From assembly GCA_016201275.1 (NCBI GenBank), contig JACQDB010000144.1:1-34402 (forward strand): a stretch of DNA of 34,402 bases. Reading direction: 5' to 3'. Shown here piece after piece: positions 849 to 28,818 of the stretch. The stretch comes from Acidobacteriota bacterium (GTDB taxonomy: Bacteria; Acidobacteriota; Blastocatellia; UBA7656). The notes under the pieces were generated by a model. It had not been told where the DNA came from and did not search any database. It saw only the letters and a program-made list of their open reading frames with translations. A program made the translations under genes and the position numbers. Position 1 is the stretch's first letter. Every line of letters begins with the position of its first letter.

Positions 849-949
849 TAGAGCGTGTCGCAGAAATGGATTTTTGTCCAGATATTGTATGTGAAGGTGT
901 AACTAACCACAAGATATGGGCGATTTCTGGAACTCTGCGACACGCTCTA
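849..949. repeat. TA-flanked palindromic element (MITE-like), GAGCGTGTCGCAGA ends
   Basis: The body at 851-947 begins GAGCGTGTCGCAGA and ends with its reverse complement TCTGCGACACGCTC. The inner bases AAAT and ATTT extend the arms imperfectly. A TA dinucleotide lies directly outside each end (849-850 and 948-949), as expected of a target duplication by TA-targeting transposases (IS630/Tc1-mariner type). It has no coding capacity. The right-hand TA is shared with the next element. Confidence 0.65.
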
Positions 950-1075
950 GAGCGGTTTTTATATGGGGTACGGAAACCTCAAACCGGTTGAGCAGCGGTC
1001 TCTGACCGTGCGAAGGTCAAAGACCGCCGCTCAACCGGTTTGGGTTTTCAGTAATTTCAAACGAAAATCGCTCTA
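948..1075. repeat. TA-flanked palindromic element, copy A of the GAGCGGTTTT family
   Basis: The element begins TAGAGCGGTTTT and ends AAAATCGCTCTA, so it has terminal inverted repeats with TA at both outer edges. Inside is a long hairpin: CAAACCGGTTGAGC and GCTCAACCGGTTTG flank a core that includes GGTCTCTGACC (997-1007). Its length (128 bp), ends and internal order match copies at 8084-8210 and 21520-21646. It is non-coding. Confidence 0.75.
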
Positions 1076-7817: not shown

Positions 7818-7937
7818 TCAATGACCGCTGATTTTTGGTGTGCTGCCTGTGTTGGTCTGTTCGACACTCGCCGCATAGTTGTAGTTCAAGTTCATCAACG
7901 TGATGCTGTTGCCGGTACGGATGCGCCGACGCAAGCC
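7818..7937 (-). pseudogene. Possible decayed RHS/YD-repeat fragment
   Basis: One reverse-strand frame reads TGNSITLMNLNYNYAAS before a stop at 7818-7820. The pattern L-x-L-x-Y-N-Y with a Ser/Thr-rich run before it resembles strands of RHS-repeat proteins. Only about 35-40 codons are readable and no start exists, so if real it is a remnant. The similarity is judged by eye and weak. Confidence 0.22.
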
Positions 7938-8083
7938 TACGGCGCTCTGTCAGAGCGCGACCTGCAAACCACCTTTGCCCTCCCGTGGCTCTACCACTGG
8001 CGACTCTCCTGTGCGCCTACGGCGCAAAAACTAAGAGACCTGCAATTACCCAATCACACGATGCGCTACTTGTATGACGCGAC

Positions 8084-8210
8084 TAAAGCGGTTTTTGTTT
8101 GAGCTTACGGAAACCTCAAACCCGTTGAGCGGCGGTCGAAGACCTTCGCTCGGTCGAAGACCACTGCTCAACGATAGCGCGTTCCGTACACACATATGCA
8201 AACCGCTCTA
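8084..8210. repeat. TA-flanked palindromic element, copy B of the GAGCGGTTTT family
   Basis: The element starts TAAAGCGGTTTTTGTTTGAG and ends GCAAACCGCTCTA, with TA at both outer edges. It shares with copy C the internal blocks CCTCAAACCCGTTGAGCGG and two GGTCGAAGACC palindromes (8134-8144 and 8152-8162), followed by GCTCAACGATA. Length 127 bp, non-coding. Confidence 0.75.
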
Positions 8211-8408
8211 ACCTCGACTTTGCCCAATTTCAGATTGGACAACACCAATCAAGAACTGACGTTGCGGTTCGCGCCTAGAATTATTGAACCTTACCTCAAC
8301 AAGCTGAGGTTCAATCATTCCAAGGGTTGAAATAGCCAATGAAATCAGGCTACTTCGCCACGGAAAAATCTACCAACGGAGAGTCGAGGCGGTTTGGCCA
8401 TTCGCTTG

Positions 8409-8647
8409 AATCCCCCAACGGCAGTTGGGCGATGGTTAAAGTCCAACCTACACCGCAGGCGAGCAAAGTTTTTTGCAATCCCCCCAACGGCAGTTGGGGG
8501 GATGCTTAAAGTCCAGCCTTGAGCATCGGGCAAGGTTGGACTTTAAGTATCCACCGACGGAAGTCGGTGGGATTAGTTGATCTTTCGCTGCCTTTCGTAG
8601 GCTGAACTTTAAGCATCCCCCAACTGCCGTTGGGGGGATTAGCAAGG
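8409..8647. repeat. Cluster of four REP-like palindromic units (PPTAVGG type)
   Basis: Four units of about 44 bp occur, two forward (8409-8450, 8477-8520) and two reverse (8531-8575, 8599-8647). Each has a stem such as CCCCCCAAC/GTTGGGGGG with a four-base loop, followed by a side motif CTTAAAGTCCAGCCT. In the third unit the stem reads CCACCGAC/GTCGGTGG: two base pairs differ from the others yet pairing is kept. In all frames the repeat translates to peptides like IPPTAVGG, which explains spurious open frames here. Confidence 0.8.
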
Positions 8648-8789
8648 CTGGTTCGTCTCTGGAAAATGTACAAAGTCGAGCTAACAATGCGACGAGTTTC
8701 ACTAATGCCGCAAGCCGACAGACGAGCTATTCCTGCGATGCGATGAAGCGCTTGTACCGCGCTATGTTGCCGATAGGACGACAAGCCAA

Positions 8790-17029: not shown

Positions 17030-18421
17030 ATGCTGAAAAATTTTCACGCAAATGCAAAACCGAAACGCTTACTCATAATCGGCGCGCTGTTGGCGGTTGG
17101 CCTTTTCGGTCTCGTTTTCTTCTGGTCAAGCGCCAGTAAAAAAAGTGACCAAGTAAAAGCAGAAGCGCAAGGCAAGGCGGAACACCAGAGCGGCGAGGGC
17201 AGGGAAGTAGAGTTGTCCACGGAAGCCTTGAACGCGACGGCGATTGAAACCGCAGAAGTGACCAGTCGTGCGCTGATTGCCACTCTGCGTTTTACCGGCA
17301 GCGTTGAAGCCAATCAACAACAGACCCAACAGATCACCCCGTTAATCGGCGGGCGCGTCGAGCGCGTGCTGGTCGCGCTTGGTGATCGCGTGCGGGCAGG
17401 GCAAGTGCTGGCGATTATCTCCAGCCCGGAAATTGCCGAGATGCACGGCAAACTCCACGAAGCGGAAACCCGTCTGGAAGTCGCGGAAAATAATTTTGCG
17501 CGGGTCCAACGCGCCGAGAATCGCGCTACCTTGATTCAAGCGAAAGCTCGCCTTGATGAAGCCGATGCGACGTTGCGGCGCACCCGGAAACTGGTTGATG
17601 CGGGCGCGGGCGCGGGAAAAGATTTGGTGGCGGCAGAGGCTGCCTATCAATCGGCAAAGGCCGAGTATGATTATCAAAATAACATTTCGATCAATCGAGA
17701 AGTGCAACAGGCGAAGGCCGATTTCGAAACTGCTCGCGTCGAGGTTCTGCATCTGAAAAACAGCTTGCGCGCTCTGGGGGCCAGCGTCTCCCCCTATGAA
17801 AATAGCAAGGTGGAACATAACACCGCGCGCATTGCTTTGGTGGCACCGATTTCGGGAAGCGTGACCGAGCGAGTGGTCAATGCAGGGGCGGGCATAGAAG
17901 CCGGGAAGCCGCTCTTCACGATTGCCAATCTTGCTACCGTGTGGGTCATTGCCAATGTGCAGGAAGCCCAGATCAACAGGCTGCGACTTGGCACTCCGGC
18001 CAGCATTCGCGTGGCCGCTCTTGCCGACATCACCGGTCGCATCACTTACCTTGATCCAACCTTGAATGAAGAGACGCGCACGGCTCGCGTGCGTATAGAA
18101 GTTGCCAACCCCTATGAACGCTTGAAAGTGGGAATGTTCGTTGAAATCAGTTTTGCGGCGCTGAATGAAGCTGGCGATACCGGCGCGGTACTGGCGGTTC
18201 CCGAAAGCGCCGTTCAACGTCTGGCCGACCGTGCCGTGGTCTTCGTTCAAAAAGACAATGAAGCCGGACATTTTGCGGTAAGAGAGATTGAAGTAGGTAG
18301 CAGCGTGGGCGGCTTCACCAAAATCATCAGCGGGTTAAGCGGCGGCGAAAAGGTTGTCACCAAAGGCAGCTTCGTTCTGAAAACACAATTGATGAAAAGC
18401 GAACTGGGGGAAGAACATTGA
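17030..18421 (+). CDS. czcB: CzcB-like periplasmic adaptor (HlyD/RND membrane fusion protein)
   Basis: Links the inner-membrane pump to the outer channel. ATG at 17030 follows AGGAG; 463 residues. There is an N-terminal membrane anchor (LLIIGALLAVGLFGLVFFW, about 14-33), then a barrel-sandwich half (TQQITPLIGGRVERVLVALG), a long coiled-coil hairpin (about 140-255, rich in Glu/Ala/Lys), the second lipoyl half (LVAPISGSVTERVVNAGAGI), a beta-barrel and a membrane-proximal domain. No extra metal-binding His cluster like that of the longer CzcB proteins is obvious. The stop overlaps the start of czcA as TGATG, implying coupled translation. Confidence 0.94.
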   Translation: MLKNFHANAKPKRLLIIGALLAVGLFGLVFFWSSASKKSDQVKAEAQGKAEHQSGEGREVELSTEALNATAIETAEVTSRALIATLRFTGSVEANQQQTQQITPLIGGRVERVLVALGDRVRAGQVLAIISSPEIAEMHGKLHEAETRLEVAENNFARVQRAENRATLIQAKARLDEADATLRRTRKLVDAGAGAGKDLVAAEAAYQSAKAEYDYQNNISINREVQQAKADFETARVEVLHLKNSLRALGASVSPYENSKVEHNTARIALVAPISGSVTERVVNAGAGIEAGKPLFTIANLATVWVIANVQEAQINRLRLGTPASIRVAALADITGRITYLDPTLNEETRTARVRIEVANPYERLKVGMFVEISFAALNEAGDTGAVLAVPESAVQRLADRAVVFVQKDNEAGHFAVREIEVGSSVGGFTKIISGLSGGEKVVTKGSFVLKTQLMKSELGEEH

Positions 18422-21400
18422 TGATCAACGCACTGATAAAATTTTCCGTCTCACAACGCCTGCTGGTTTTATTGCTGGTTGGGTTGATGATCGGCGCAGG
18501 CCTCTACAGCTTGAAGCGCCTGCCAATTGATGCCGTGCCGGACGTAACCAATATACAGGTACAAGTTTTAACTGCCGCGCCTTCACTGGCTCCCCTGGAA
18601 GTCGAAAGACAGATCACCTTTCCGGTTGAAGTGGCCATGTCCGGACTCCCGGAGATTGAAGAAATTCGCTCGGTGTCCAAGTTTGGCCTCTCGGCGGTCA
18701 CCATCGTTTTTACCGACTCGCTTGATATTTACTTCGCTCGCCAACTGGTTTTGGAAAGGCTGTCGCAAGCGCGTGAGCAAATTCCCGCAACCCTCGGCTC
18801 TCCCGAAATGGGACCCATCTCCACCGGGCTGGGAGAGATTTATCAATACGAATTGAAAGCCAGCGATGCCACAAAGTTCGATGCCACAGCGCTTCGCACG
18901 CTTCAGGATTGGAGCGTCAGGCGGCAACTCCTCAGCGTCTCAGGGGTGACCGAAGTGAATAGTTTTGGGGGCTTGGAAAAACAGTATCAAGTCCGTGTTG
19001 ATCCGGCGCGACTGCAAGCCTACGGGCTGACGTTGCGAGATGTCTTTGAAGCGGTGGCGAGAAATAATGCCAATGTCGGCGGCGCGTATATTGAAAAAGG
19101 CGCAGAGCAATACTTACTTCGCGGTCTCGGTCTGGTCGAATCTCTGGACGATATTTCAAGCATAGTCGTCAAGACCGGCAAAGATGGAACGCCGGTTGTT
19201 GTGCGCGATGTTGGCGAAGTCGTGGTCGGGGCAACGGTTCGACAAGGAGCGGTCTCTGCGGATGCCAAAGGCGAAATCGTTTCCGGCATCGCCTTGATGT
19301 TGAAGGGAGAAAACTCTCGCGCTGTCGTTGAGCGCGTCAAAGAGCGCGTCGAACAAATAAAAAAAACCTTGCCGAACGGGGTGGAATTGGTGCCGTTTTA
19401 TGATCGAACGGAATTGGTAGATCGAACGATTCAAACCGTAGAAAAGAATCTTCTGGAAGGCGCGGCACTGGTCATCATCGTGTTGATTCTGCTGCTTGGC
19501 AATTGGCGCGGGGCGTTGCTGGTCGCCACGATCATACCGCTGTCTATGCTTTTTGCCGCTATCTGTATGGTGATGTTCAAGGTCTCTGGAAACCTCATGA
19601 GTTTGGGAGCGCTGGACTTCGGCTTGATCGTAGATGGCGCGGTCGTGATGGTTGAAAACGTGGTGCGGCAACGCGCCGAAGCGCAGCATCAGGGCAAAGA
19701 AGAGAGTCCACAAAAAACCATTCTGGCCGCCTGTCTGGAAGTTGGTCGCCCTGTGGTTTTTGCTGTGGCCATCATCATGATTGTCTATCTGCCGATTCTC
19801 AGCCTCACCGGAATTGAAGGCAAGATGTTCAAGCCGATGGCGCTGACGGTTATTTTTGCGCTCCTCGGTTCGCTGCTGTTGTCTTTGACGTTTATTCCGG
19901 CGGCGATGACCTTTTTGTTGCGCGGCAAAGTTTCAGAGAGTGAATCGTTTCTCATTCGCTATGCCAAGCGGGGGTATCGTCCGGCGCTCGATTTGGTGAC
20001 GCGCCATCGCCGTAAAGCGGTAGCGATTGCTGCCGCTTTAGTGCTTCTCAGCGGCATTATCTTTCCATTTCTTGGCTCCGAGTTTATTCCCAGACTGGAT
20101 GAAGGCTCGCTGGCGGTACAGATTCAACGGCTCCCCAGTATCTCGCTGACCGAATCGGTGAACATAGCGACTGAAGCCGAGCGCATCTTGATGCGCTTCC
20201 CGGAAGTGGTCACAGTGGTTTCAAAAACCGGTCGCGCCGAGGTTGCGACTGATCCGATGAGCGTTGATATAAGCGACCTCTATGTGGCCTTGAAACCGCC
20301 ATCGGAATGGACGAGCGCGAAGACCAGAGAAGGATTGGTGGAAAAAATGTCTCAGGCGTTGGCCGATCAGGTTCCCAGCGCGGTGTTCAGTTTTTCTCAA
20401 CCGATAGAGTTAAGAGTCTCTGAGTTGATCTCCGGGGTGCGCTCGGATGTGGCGATAAAAGTTTTCGGTGATGACCTCGATACCTTGAAAACTACGGCGG
20501 AGAAAATCTCTCGTGTGGTGAGCGGCGTACCCGGCGCGGAAGATGTCAAAGTCGAAGCGGTGTCCGGCTTGCCGCAACTGCAAATCAAACCGGATCGCGC
20601 TGCGCTGGCGCGTTATGGCATCAATGTCGAAGATGTCAACCATCTCGTTGAATCAATCGTTGCCGGAAAAAATGCTGGGCTGGTTTACGAAGGCGAGCGG
20701 CGATTTAATCTTGTCGTGCGCTTAAAAGAAGAGCGCGACCGTGATGTGGAAGCCTTAAAAGCGTTGCTGGTTTCGGCTCCAAACGGGGCGCGCATCCCGC
20801 TGGCGCAGCTTGCCGATGTAGCTTTGGTCGAAGGCCCGGCGCAGATTTCCCGCGAAGACACGCGGCGAAGAATCGGCGTGGAATTGAATGTCAGAGGGCG
20901 CGACATCGGCAGTTTCGTAAAAGAGGCGCAGGAAAAAATCGAGCAACAGGTAGCGATTCCTTCGGGCTACTACGTGACTTGGGGCGGGCAGTTTGAAAAT
21001 TTAAAACGAGCCTCGGCAAGGCTGCTGATCGTGGTGCCGCTGGCGCTCTTTCTCATCTTTGTGTTGCTGTTCACCACCTTTGGGAGTGTGAAGCAAGCGC
21101 TGCTCATCTACACCGGCATTCCCTTTGCGATAGTCGGCGGCGTGTTGGCTATAGCGCTTCGCGGAATGCCGTTTTCAATCTCTGCGGGTGTCGGTTTCAT
21201 TGCGCTTTTTGGCGTAGCGGTCTTAAACGGGGTGGTGATGGTGAGCTACATCAACAAGCGGCGCGATGAAGGGCGCACGCTTGATGAAGCGATACGCGAA
21301 GGGGCGCAGACGCGCCTGCGCCCGGTGTTGATGACGGCACTGGTCGCCAGCCTGGGATTTATTCCTATGGCGCTTGCCCGGTCTGCCGGTGCCGAAGTGC

Positions 21401-21510
21401 AGAGACCGTTGGCGACCGTGGTGATTGGTGGATTGATTACCTCGACGCTGTTGACGCTGCTGATTTTGCCCACCTTCTACCATTGGTTTGAGAGTAAGCA
21501 GAGCGAATGA
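18421..21510 (+). CDS. czcA: CzcA-like heavy-metal RND efflux transporter
   Basis: Inner-membrane proton/metal antiporter of the HME-RND family, 1029 residues with the usual 12 membrane spans and two large periplasmic loops. ATG at 18421 overlaps the czcB stop (TGATG); a TTG one codon earlier is less likely. The TM4 motif reads DFGLIVDGAVVMVEN, the form found in divalent-cation exporters (Zn/Co/Cd/Ni), unlike the AIG...DAA form of Cu/Ag pumps. Also typical are FSQPIELRVSELISGVRSD in the second porter loop and the N-terminus RLPIDAVPDVTNIQVQV. The exact metal cannot be fixed from sequence. A palindromic element (copy C) begins 10 bases after the stop. Confidence 0.96.
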   Translation: MINALIKFSVSQRLLVLLLVGLMIGAGLYSLKRLPIDAVPDVTNIQVQVLTAAPSLAPLEVERQITFPVEVAMSGLPEIEEIRSVSKFGLSAVTIVFTDSLDIYFARQLVLERLSQAREQIPATLGSPEMGPISTGLGEIYQYELKASDATKFDATALRTLQDWSVRRQLLSVSGVTEVNSFGGLEKQYQVRVDPARLQAYGLTLRDVFEAVARNNANVGGAYIEKGAEQYLLRGLGLVESLDDISSIVVKTGKDGTPVVVRDVGEVVVGATVRQGAVSADAKGEIVSGIALMLKGENSRAVVERVKERVEQIKKTLPNGVELVPFYDRTELVDRTIQTVEKNLLEGAALVIIVLILLLGNWRGALLVATIIPLSMLFAAICMVMFKVSGNLMSLGALDFGLIVDGAVVMVENVVRQRAEAQHQGKEESPQKTILAACLEVGRPVVFAVAIIMIVYLPILSLTGIEGKMFKPMALTVIFALLGSLLLSLTFIPAAMTFLLRGKVSESESFLIRYAKRGYRPALDLVTRHRRKAVAIAAALVLLSGIIFPFLGSEFIPRLDEGSLAVQIQRLPSISLTESVNIATEAERILMRFPEVVTVVSKTGRAEVATDPMSVDISDLYVALKPPSEWTSAKTREGLVEKMSQALADQVPSAVFSFSQPIELRVSELISGVRSDVAIKVFGDDLDTLKTTAEKISRVVSGVPGAEDVKVEAVSGLPQLQIKPDRAALARYGINVEDVNHLVESIVAGKNAGLVYEGERRFNLVVRLKEERDRDVEALKALLVSAPNGARIPLAQLADVALVEGPAQISREDTRRRIGVELNVRGRDIGSFVKEAQEKIEQQVAIPSGYYVTWGGQFENLKRASARLLIVVPLALFLIFVLLFTTFGSVKQALLIYTGIPFAIVGGVLAIALRGMPFSISAGVGFIALFGVAVLNGVVMVSYINKRRDEGRTLDEAIREGAQTRLRPVLMTALVASLGFIPMALARSAGAEVQRPLATVVIGGLITSTLLTLLILPTFYHWFESKQSE

Positions 21511-21519
21511 GTTAATTTT

Positions 21520-21646
21520 CAGAGCGGTTTTTGTTTGAGATTAGTGAAACCTCAAACCCGTTGAGCGGCGGTCGAAGACCTTCGTGCGGTCGAAGACCGC
21601 TGCTCAACGATAAGGGGTTCCGTACACCCATATGAAAACCGCTCTA
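21520..21646. repeat. Palindromic element, copy C of the GAGCGGTTTT family
   Basis: It starts CAGAGCGGTTTTTGTTTGAG and ends GAAAACCGCTCTA. The outer right edge is TA; the left edge is CA, a one-base change. Internal blocks CCTCAAACCCGTTGAGCGG and the doubled GGTCGAAGACC are nearly identical to copy B. Length 127 bp. It is placed 10 bases past the czcA stop codon. Confidence 0.75.
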
Positions 21647-21676
21647 GGTAGTGGGTCAATGAGGAGAGAAAAGAAA

Positions 21677-21878
21677 AGTTTGGCGTTCCGCCTACAGGCC
21701 AATGGCGTTCAGTTAAGAAAAACGGTACCGCCGACGGTCTAGTCTGCGGCTGACAGCAGCAAGCTAAGACTGGGATTTCGCACGCTTCTGCAACCAAGTC
21801 CGCCGCCGGCTAGACCGCCGGCGCTACCTCTATGCCGCTTAACTTCATGCCATTGGTCTGTAGGCGGAACGCCAAACT
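21677..21878. repeat. 202-bp element with 30-bp terminal inverted repeats
   Basis: The 30-base left end (21677-21706, beginning AGTTTGGCGTTCCGCCTACA) and right end (21849-21878) are reverse complements with one mismatch. Inside, a second pair, ACCGCCGACGGTCTAG (21727-21742) and CTAGACCGCCGGCGCT (21810-21825), pairs at 14 of 16 positions. No open frame of note lies inside and no target duplication is clear. It is probably a MITE-like or other mobile palindromic repeat. Confidence 0.65.
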
Positions 21879-28754: not shown

Positions 28755-28818
28755 GCAAAGTTTAGAGGCGGTCTCTGACCGTAAATTGCGGTGGTCTCTG
28801 ACCGCCTCTAAACTTTGC
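28755..28818. repeat. 64-nt palindrome with doubled GGTCTCTGACC core
   Basis: GCAAAGTTTAGAGGCGGT (28755-28772) and its exact reverse complement (28801-28818) form 18-bp arms. Between and overlapping the arms GGTCTCTGACCG occurs twice (28770-28781 and 28793-28804). The same core occurs in copy A of the TA-flanked family and a GGTCGAAGACC form occurs twice in copies B and C, suggesting a related palindromic family. It lies 30 bases past the OmpA-domain gene. Confidence 0.65.

Follow-up and report, generated by a model that had tools for sequence, protein, structure and literature searches.

A 127-bp intergenic repeat family of an Acidobacteriota genome very probably consists of IS630-type MITEs carrying a REPIN

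The window analysed in this study is a 34,402-bp stretch of DNA from a draft Acidobacteriota genome (the host genome, G000; 6.84 Mb, 162 contigs, 98.7% complete). It contains three copies (A, B and C) of a palindromic repeat, designated family F1, as well as one free-standing doublet of the REP-like units that make up the cores of these copies (Table 1). The coordinates, lengths and borders of the three copies, including the CA at the left side of copy C, were re-read from the sequence and agree with a preliminary description of this DNA. Copy A is opposite in orientation to copies B and C, and copy C begins approximately 10 bp past the stop codon of a gene encoding an AcrB-type transporter (18418-21510). 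When oriented alike, copies B and C are identical in 114 of 127 alignment columns, compared to 102/129 for A versus B and 105/129 for A versus C. The subgroups proposed earlier within the 127-bp family, with B and C closer to each other than to A, are real. The folding energies correspond to z = -8.5 for copy C and z = -10.0 for copy A, with none of 200 dinucleotide shuffles equally stable. A search of the window against Rfam at the gathering threshold gave a tRNA as the sole match.

Table 1. Copies of family F1 and REP-like units identified in the window.
Feature	Position	Strand	Basis
Copy A, family F1, divergent subgroup, 128 bp, TA at both borders	948..1075	-	sequence
REP-like unit GTTGAGCAGCGGTCTCTGACC, copy A core	987..1007	+	0 mismatches to degenerate unit
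Inverted partner REP-like unit, copy A core	1015..1035	-	pattern match
Copy B, family F1, 127 bp, TA at both borders, left = TAAAGCGG	8084..8210	+	
REP-like unit, copy B core	8124..8144	+	pattern match
Inverted partner REP-like unit, copy B core	8152..8172	-	1 mismatch
Copy C, family F1, 127 bp, left border CA, right border TA	21520..21646	+	
REP-like unit, copy C core	21560..21580	+	pattern match
Inverted partner REP-like unit, copy C core	21588..21608	-	pattern match
Free-standing inverted REP doublet, GTTTAG variant, without IS630-type ends	28760..28813	.	pattern match

The left TA of copy A (948-949) doubles as the right TA of an adjoining element of the 102-bp type. This second TA-bounded element (849-949), which abuts copy A, has palindromic ends TAGAGCGTGTCGCAGA...TCTGCGACACGCTCTA; such end pairs occur 58 times in the 1.99-Mb sample described below, 47 of them 102 bp in length, and the 12 that were printed have no REP core. 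Copies B and C sit amid other high-copy repeats (7920-8047, 8211-8692 and 21647-21878), and the host genome as a whole is rich in interspersed repeat families. Arms of the type GTTTAGAGG, similar to the doublet at 28760-28813, constitute cores in three other genomes (G435, G463 and G477).

A first look in the host genome gave 221 candidate loci, and the 40 that were scored each had E < 1e-46. The ends of the element were found 239 times at up to 2 mismatches, compared to no match of the reversed pattern, i.e., the genome holds at least about 120 elements. Individual copies were analyzed in a sample of 31 contigs (1,985,845 bases, window included), most of which were picked for their hits, so the density of copies in it is biased upward. 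With a threshold of E ≤ 1e-10 the sample contains 53 full and 2 partial copies. The genome-wide search suggested in the preliminary description thus revealed a large family. Exactly 127 bp is the length of 40 of the 53 full copies, which is too short for a transposase gene. The median pairwise identity in a set of 56 copies was 0.913, with no two copies identical, and the outer 10 pairs of the terminal inverted repeats are almost invariant (48 copies).

The flanks of different aligned copies are unrelated to each other, as had been described for the three copies of the window, and the borders are sharp. TA was found at the left border of 49 of the 53 full copies in the sample and at the right border of an equal number (49/53). 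Both borders were TA in 46 copies, in which the target context was CTAG (18), TTAG (9), TTAA (6), CTAA (6), ATAG (3), CTAT (3) or ATAA (1), the usual border being TA within YTAR, often CTAG. Tenzen and Ohtsubo reportedly found in 1991 that IS630 favours TA inside CTAG. A purified IS630-family transposase has been observed to insert at TA and to duplicate it (PMC2170065).

To identify empty sites, the flanks of each copy were joined around one TA and searched against the sample, the comparison being with repeats within the genome and not with a close relative. A paralogous repeat spans the empty site for 7 of the 53 copies, which yielded 39 alignments. The junction corresponds to two ungapped bases in 38 of these, and no gap lies within 12 columns of it in 37. 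TA itself is present at five of the 39 junctions (three without a nearby gap; of the other two, one has a gap in the junction itself and one near it); the other pairs were TC (18), CA (5), AA (4), GA (3) and four single others. The clearest empty site is that of copy C125:12927-13053: its paralogues, C80:111408 and C144:20207, each have just one TA there (...ATAGCC-TA-G...). Copy A has one TA match with a weak left arm (14/22). The non-TA junctions fit the idea that only those members of a repeat which carried TA could be hit, although they are weaker proof. Empty sites with a single TA, which the preliminary description had sought in related genomes, were thus obtained, but from within-genome repeats and in a minority of the alignments. 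The TA target is duplicated by F1 insertion, and what has dispersed to TA sites is a unit of 125 bp together with the duplicated TA.

One copy (G000:C17:55720-55846, L278) lies exactly in the middle of a perfect palindrome, TTCCGGCACGCT-TA-AGCGTGCCGGAA. Its flanks, read by eye with one TA counted, form a perfect 26-bp palindrome, and insertion into a hairpin or cruciform tip would fit this location.

F1 shares its outer ends, TAGAGCGGTTTT...TACGGAA, with insertion sequences of the IS630 family. In a class-wide search, at least one end at ≤2 mismatches was found in 17 of 147 genomes, compared to 1 match of the reversed pattern in each of 3. In G481 (one case) and G015 (two cases), the same inverted ends enclose an IS630-type transposase in elements of 1014-1019 bp; G015 belongs to the class of the window genome according to the kinship labels. 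The right end of copy C and the left end of the G481 insertion sequence are identical at 25 of 28 positions. A domain scan that took in the G481 element and one of the G015 elements (L098) placed PF13358 and PF01710 over the cut-off in the G481 transposase pieces, the second frame of which matched the NCBIfam IS630 model with 120.7 bits (cut-off 100), and PF13358 over the cut-off in the 201-residue piece of L098. In all three elements (L078, L087 and L098) the transposase is split over two overlapping frames, which suggests programmed frameshifting.

More distant IS630 relatives were surveyed for terminal inverted repeats at 35 loci among 80 fetched. The sequence TAGAGC opens both ends in 20 of the 35 best pairs. 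In a control performed on 25 of the 35, mostly good-looking ones, 20 pairs had higher scores than any of 25 reversed controls.

A search of the host genome gave no relative of the G481 transposase (best E 0.0168). Four PF13358 (DDE_3) loci of that genome were considered as parent candidates and rejected, as they lack F1 ends. Full insertion sequences with the same ends, which were expected to name the parent of the family, were found in G481 and G015; no parent was found in the host genome. From these elements of relatives we infer that an IS630-type enzyme would move F1 in trans. The earlier view of the repeats as non-autonomous elements of a TA-targeting transposase is supported by the sharp borders, the unrelated flanks, the TA duplication, the preference for CTAG/YTAR targets, the empty sites and the IS630 elements of relatives with the same ends.

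The profile of F1 also matched loci having only the middle part of the element in common with it. The core units are of the type GTTGAG(A/C)RGCGGTCNNNGACC, and each of the 52 F1 loci has them as an inverted doublet. With ≤2 mismatches, the RAYT-type unit pattern gave 628 matches in the host genome, in which a palindromic unit can count twice, compared to 2 matches of the reversed pattern; it was matched in 46 of the 53 full F1 copies. The sample contains 162 unit loci: 52 in F1, 47 in a family with TATAGCG ends (both present in 36, a single one in 11), 22 in a third family whose outer parts are of the GGAAAG/TTCCCC type, and 41 elsewhere, the last group including two pieces of F1 and 8 genic, probably chance, matches. 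Thus, 121 of the 162 loci belong to repeat families whose ends are conserved. The core is held by 34 of the 36 full elements of the TATAGCG family, and it is present in 51 of 51 F1 end pairs of the sample, one 891-bp pair being spurious. No F1 end pair devoid of the core was found in the sample when ends with ≤1 mismatch, 45-1500 bp apart, were searched for.

Among 6-bp stems with a 3-nt loop, GCGGTC is the most frequent in the sample (121 occurrences, compared to 47 for the next). The REP-like units are extragenic as well as abundant: of 60 hairpins located outside full F1 copies, 4 overlap called genes. Single REP units were also observed in tandem arrays, at G000:C93:36210-36376 (period ∼49 bp) and C52:14611-14723 (∼45 bp). 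An attC-like reading of GTTGAGC...GCTCAAC was dropped, because attC sites carry their boxes in the opposite order. The units have GTTGAG or GTTTAG heads in place of the canonical GTAG or GTGG head. This makes them a poorer fit to canonical REPs only, as REPs without GT[AG]G have been described for some Y1 classes (PMC6006769).

The host genome has eight matches to Y1 transposases, and the gene flanked by units on both sides is that of contig C93. Seven flanking units are exact to the degenerate pattern: four direct (+) and one inverted (-) on the left, and two inverted (-) on the right. At the other Y1 loci of the genome no units were found, except for one 2-mismatch match at the C80 gene. The C93 protein (187 aa) matches the NCBIfam model of REP-associated tyrosine transposases (NF047646) with 104.4 bits (cut-off 80), as well as PF01797, and shows a weak match to the solved TnpArep 4er8 (E 6e-4). 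The flanking of a RAYT by inverted REPs is a described layout (PMC2817692). Identity between the F1 core and the RAYT-flanking REP is 87.5% over 24 bases, a difference that counts against a composite element. The F1 core is an inverted pair of REP-like units and, judged from these sequence matches, is best read as REPIN/BIME-like and as part of the genome's own RAYT system. The preliminary reading of the repeats as non-autonomous elements therefore holds, these being IS630-type MITEs, but was incomplete, as it overlooked that the core appears to consist of two REP units belonging to another transposon system.

A search of 14 genomes placed the RAYTs closest to that of C93 in G002 (74% identical), G463 (58% and 55%) and G435 (49%). 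On either side of the G435 RAYT (NF047646, 105.6 bits) there are units GTTTAGAGGCGGGC-TTCC-GCCCGCC, and the core of the G435 element is GTTTAGAGGCGGGC-ATA-GCCCGCCTCTAAAC; its stem equals the RAYT-flanking units (by eye), while the loop differs. G463 has its RAYT matches in two partial pieces that contain one stop apiece; one unit lies beside a partial piece only, which is weak support. Within 1.5 kb of the G002 RAYT there is no unit at ≤2 mismatches.

Similarly ended elements with quite different palindromic cores were found in G019 and G470. If F1 is a composite, these cores should be REPs of the genomes that contain them, a prediction that was tested on 22 Y1 loci from four genomes. The G019 core arms stand on either side of one Y1 gene, and the remaining 13 Y1 loci of this genome lack them. 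Those of G470 flank one Y1 gene on both sides with 97-100% identity, and the core also occurs once as a doublet beside a weak Y1 match in a long sensor-kinase-like frame; the right end of the G470 element is degenerate. Both proteins are Y1 transposases which score only 25.5 (G019) and 26.8 bits (G470) with NF047646, below the cut-off. In a cross-comparison of four loci, the own-genome pairing was the best for G000, G019 and G470, while the G435 core scored slightly higher with the G000 locus than with its own (26.9 vs 25.4 bits).

Altogether, short end-bearing elements of 11 other genomes were inspected, of which G435, G019 and G470 agree with the prediction, G463 agrees weakly and seven do not. 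Palindromic cores without a match at their Y1 loci are present in G417 and G410 (genomes 73% and 83% complete, respectively). G477 has a related core and, in the search for relatives of the C93 RAYT, showed no RAYT close to it. No strong palindromic core was found in G003 and G010, the G453 element is a hairpin of 42 bp, and the search in G445 gave no second end. As a separate observation, G019 contains 112 ends, and the elements seen there (L031, L085, L097) have very long, almost perfect palindromic cores.

If F1 were a plain IS630-derived MITE, with the core merely a part of the element and the REPs representing decayed or recombined pieces of MITE cores, the retention of the core in all F1 end pairs of the sample and the location of most unit loci in conserved-end families would fit. 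We nevertheless consider this improbable, given that units in inverted layout flank RAYT genes in both G000 and G435, that the sequences matching the cores of G019 and G470 are quite different ones, and that RAYTs flanked by REPs have been described as a system (PMC2817692).

Still less probable is a reading in which all 127 bp are a REPIN with extended conserved flanks, moved by the RAYT via single-stranded DNA, and the IS630-like ends are target sequence that hitchhikes. The apparent membership of the core in the RAYT system would suit such an origin, as would the REP dimers in conserved TA-ended palindromes, termed targets, that PMC3733652 describes. However, the TA duplication, the CTAG/YTAR preference and the empty sites are all found at the outer borders, where IS630 elements have the same ends, and no core-less F1 end pair was detected in the sample within the limits of the search.

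With respect to genomic setting, 51 of the 53 F1 copies overlap no called gene, the non-coding fraction being 0.246. Gaps between convergent genes hold 15 copies compared to 7.9 expected by bases (47 copies; p 0.010, uncorrected and based on home-made gene calls). Among 48 F1 copies, compensatory changes were limited to 1 cell altered on both sides, and private substitutions are not significantly depleted in stems (31/96 columns vs 15/31, p 0.23). These 48 copies provide no evidence that the hairpin has been under selection once inserted. The extragenic location, the excess in convergent gaps and the strong hairpins might point to static structural repeats retained for a function, for instance to terminate transcription where genes converge. 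This is hardly credible in view of the empty sites, the target duplication and the lack of significant depletion in stems, the intergenic bias being expected from selection against gene disruption.

We conclude that F1 is very probably a DDE-type (IS630) MITE carrying a REPIN of an HUH system. According to the proposed mechanism, an IS630-type DDE transposase acting in trans would bind the ends and move F1 by cut-and-paste, inserting it at TA, preferably in CTAG/YTAR, with duplication of the TA; this transposase would now be missing from the assembly or lost. The RAYT is an HUH-type transposase, which handles single-stranded hairpins. The REP doublet between the ends would travel as a passenger, and the spread of the composite as one unit would account for the larger number of REP loci in conserved-end families than in the free state in the sample. 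The REP pair may have entered by RAYT-driven insertion into the tip of the MITE hairpin or, alternatively, an IS630 element may have closed around a REPIN. More tentatively, we propose that in several lineages of the class REPINs of HUH-type RAYTs might have been captured repeatedly at the centre of IS630-type MITEs, possibly because the RAYT inserts at MITE hairpin tips, so that many REP copies would have been spread by a DDE transposase and not by the RAYT.

The abundance of REPs is normally credited to RAYT activity. If REP doublets ride in DDE-mobilised MITEs, their copy numbers and positions do not measure RAYT activity, and one composite joins two chemically unrelated transposition systems. 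This gives a testable rule: the core of a MITE is read and a match is sought beside the RAYT of the same genome.

F1 can be likened by kind, not by sequence, to Nezha of cyanobacteria, a bacterial MITE. Correia elements and RUP (IS630-Spn1) are, like F1, short, bounded by terminal inverted repeats, TA-ended and linked to the IS630 family (PMC2229807, PMC2817692); F1 differs from them, as judged by their descriptions and not their sequences, in that its core is the putative REP doublet of a RAYT system. ERIC (IRU, RU-1) shares with F1 the length of 127 bp, the intergenic location and the TA termini (PMC2229807), whereas the account of it available in that source, the sole basis of the comparison, gives a terminal inverted repeat of 7 bp and mentions no REP core.

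IS630-type MITEs and REPINs are thus each known, and their combination has one short precedent (PMC3733652), a single paragraph that was the only description of such a composite yielded by a literature search covering few subscription journals. It concerns the GTAG-15 dimers of Anabaena variabilis, enclosed in TATAGGA...TCCTATA palindromes that, like F1, are TA-ended and surround REP dimers; no such palindrome lacking a REP was found there (PMC3733652). In that paragraph the palindromes are termed targets and tied to no transposase or target duplication. As in REPIN/BIME systems with a RAYT (TnpA_REP), the core of F1 is an inverted REP doublet hairpin, and the units flank the gene of a REP-associated tyrosine transposase (PMC3116915, PMC2817692, PMC6006769). 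Unlike in those systems, the REP head is GTTGAG/GTTTAG and not GTAG/GTGG, and many of the doublets are enclosed by the ends of a DDE-type transposon.
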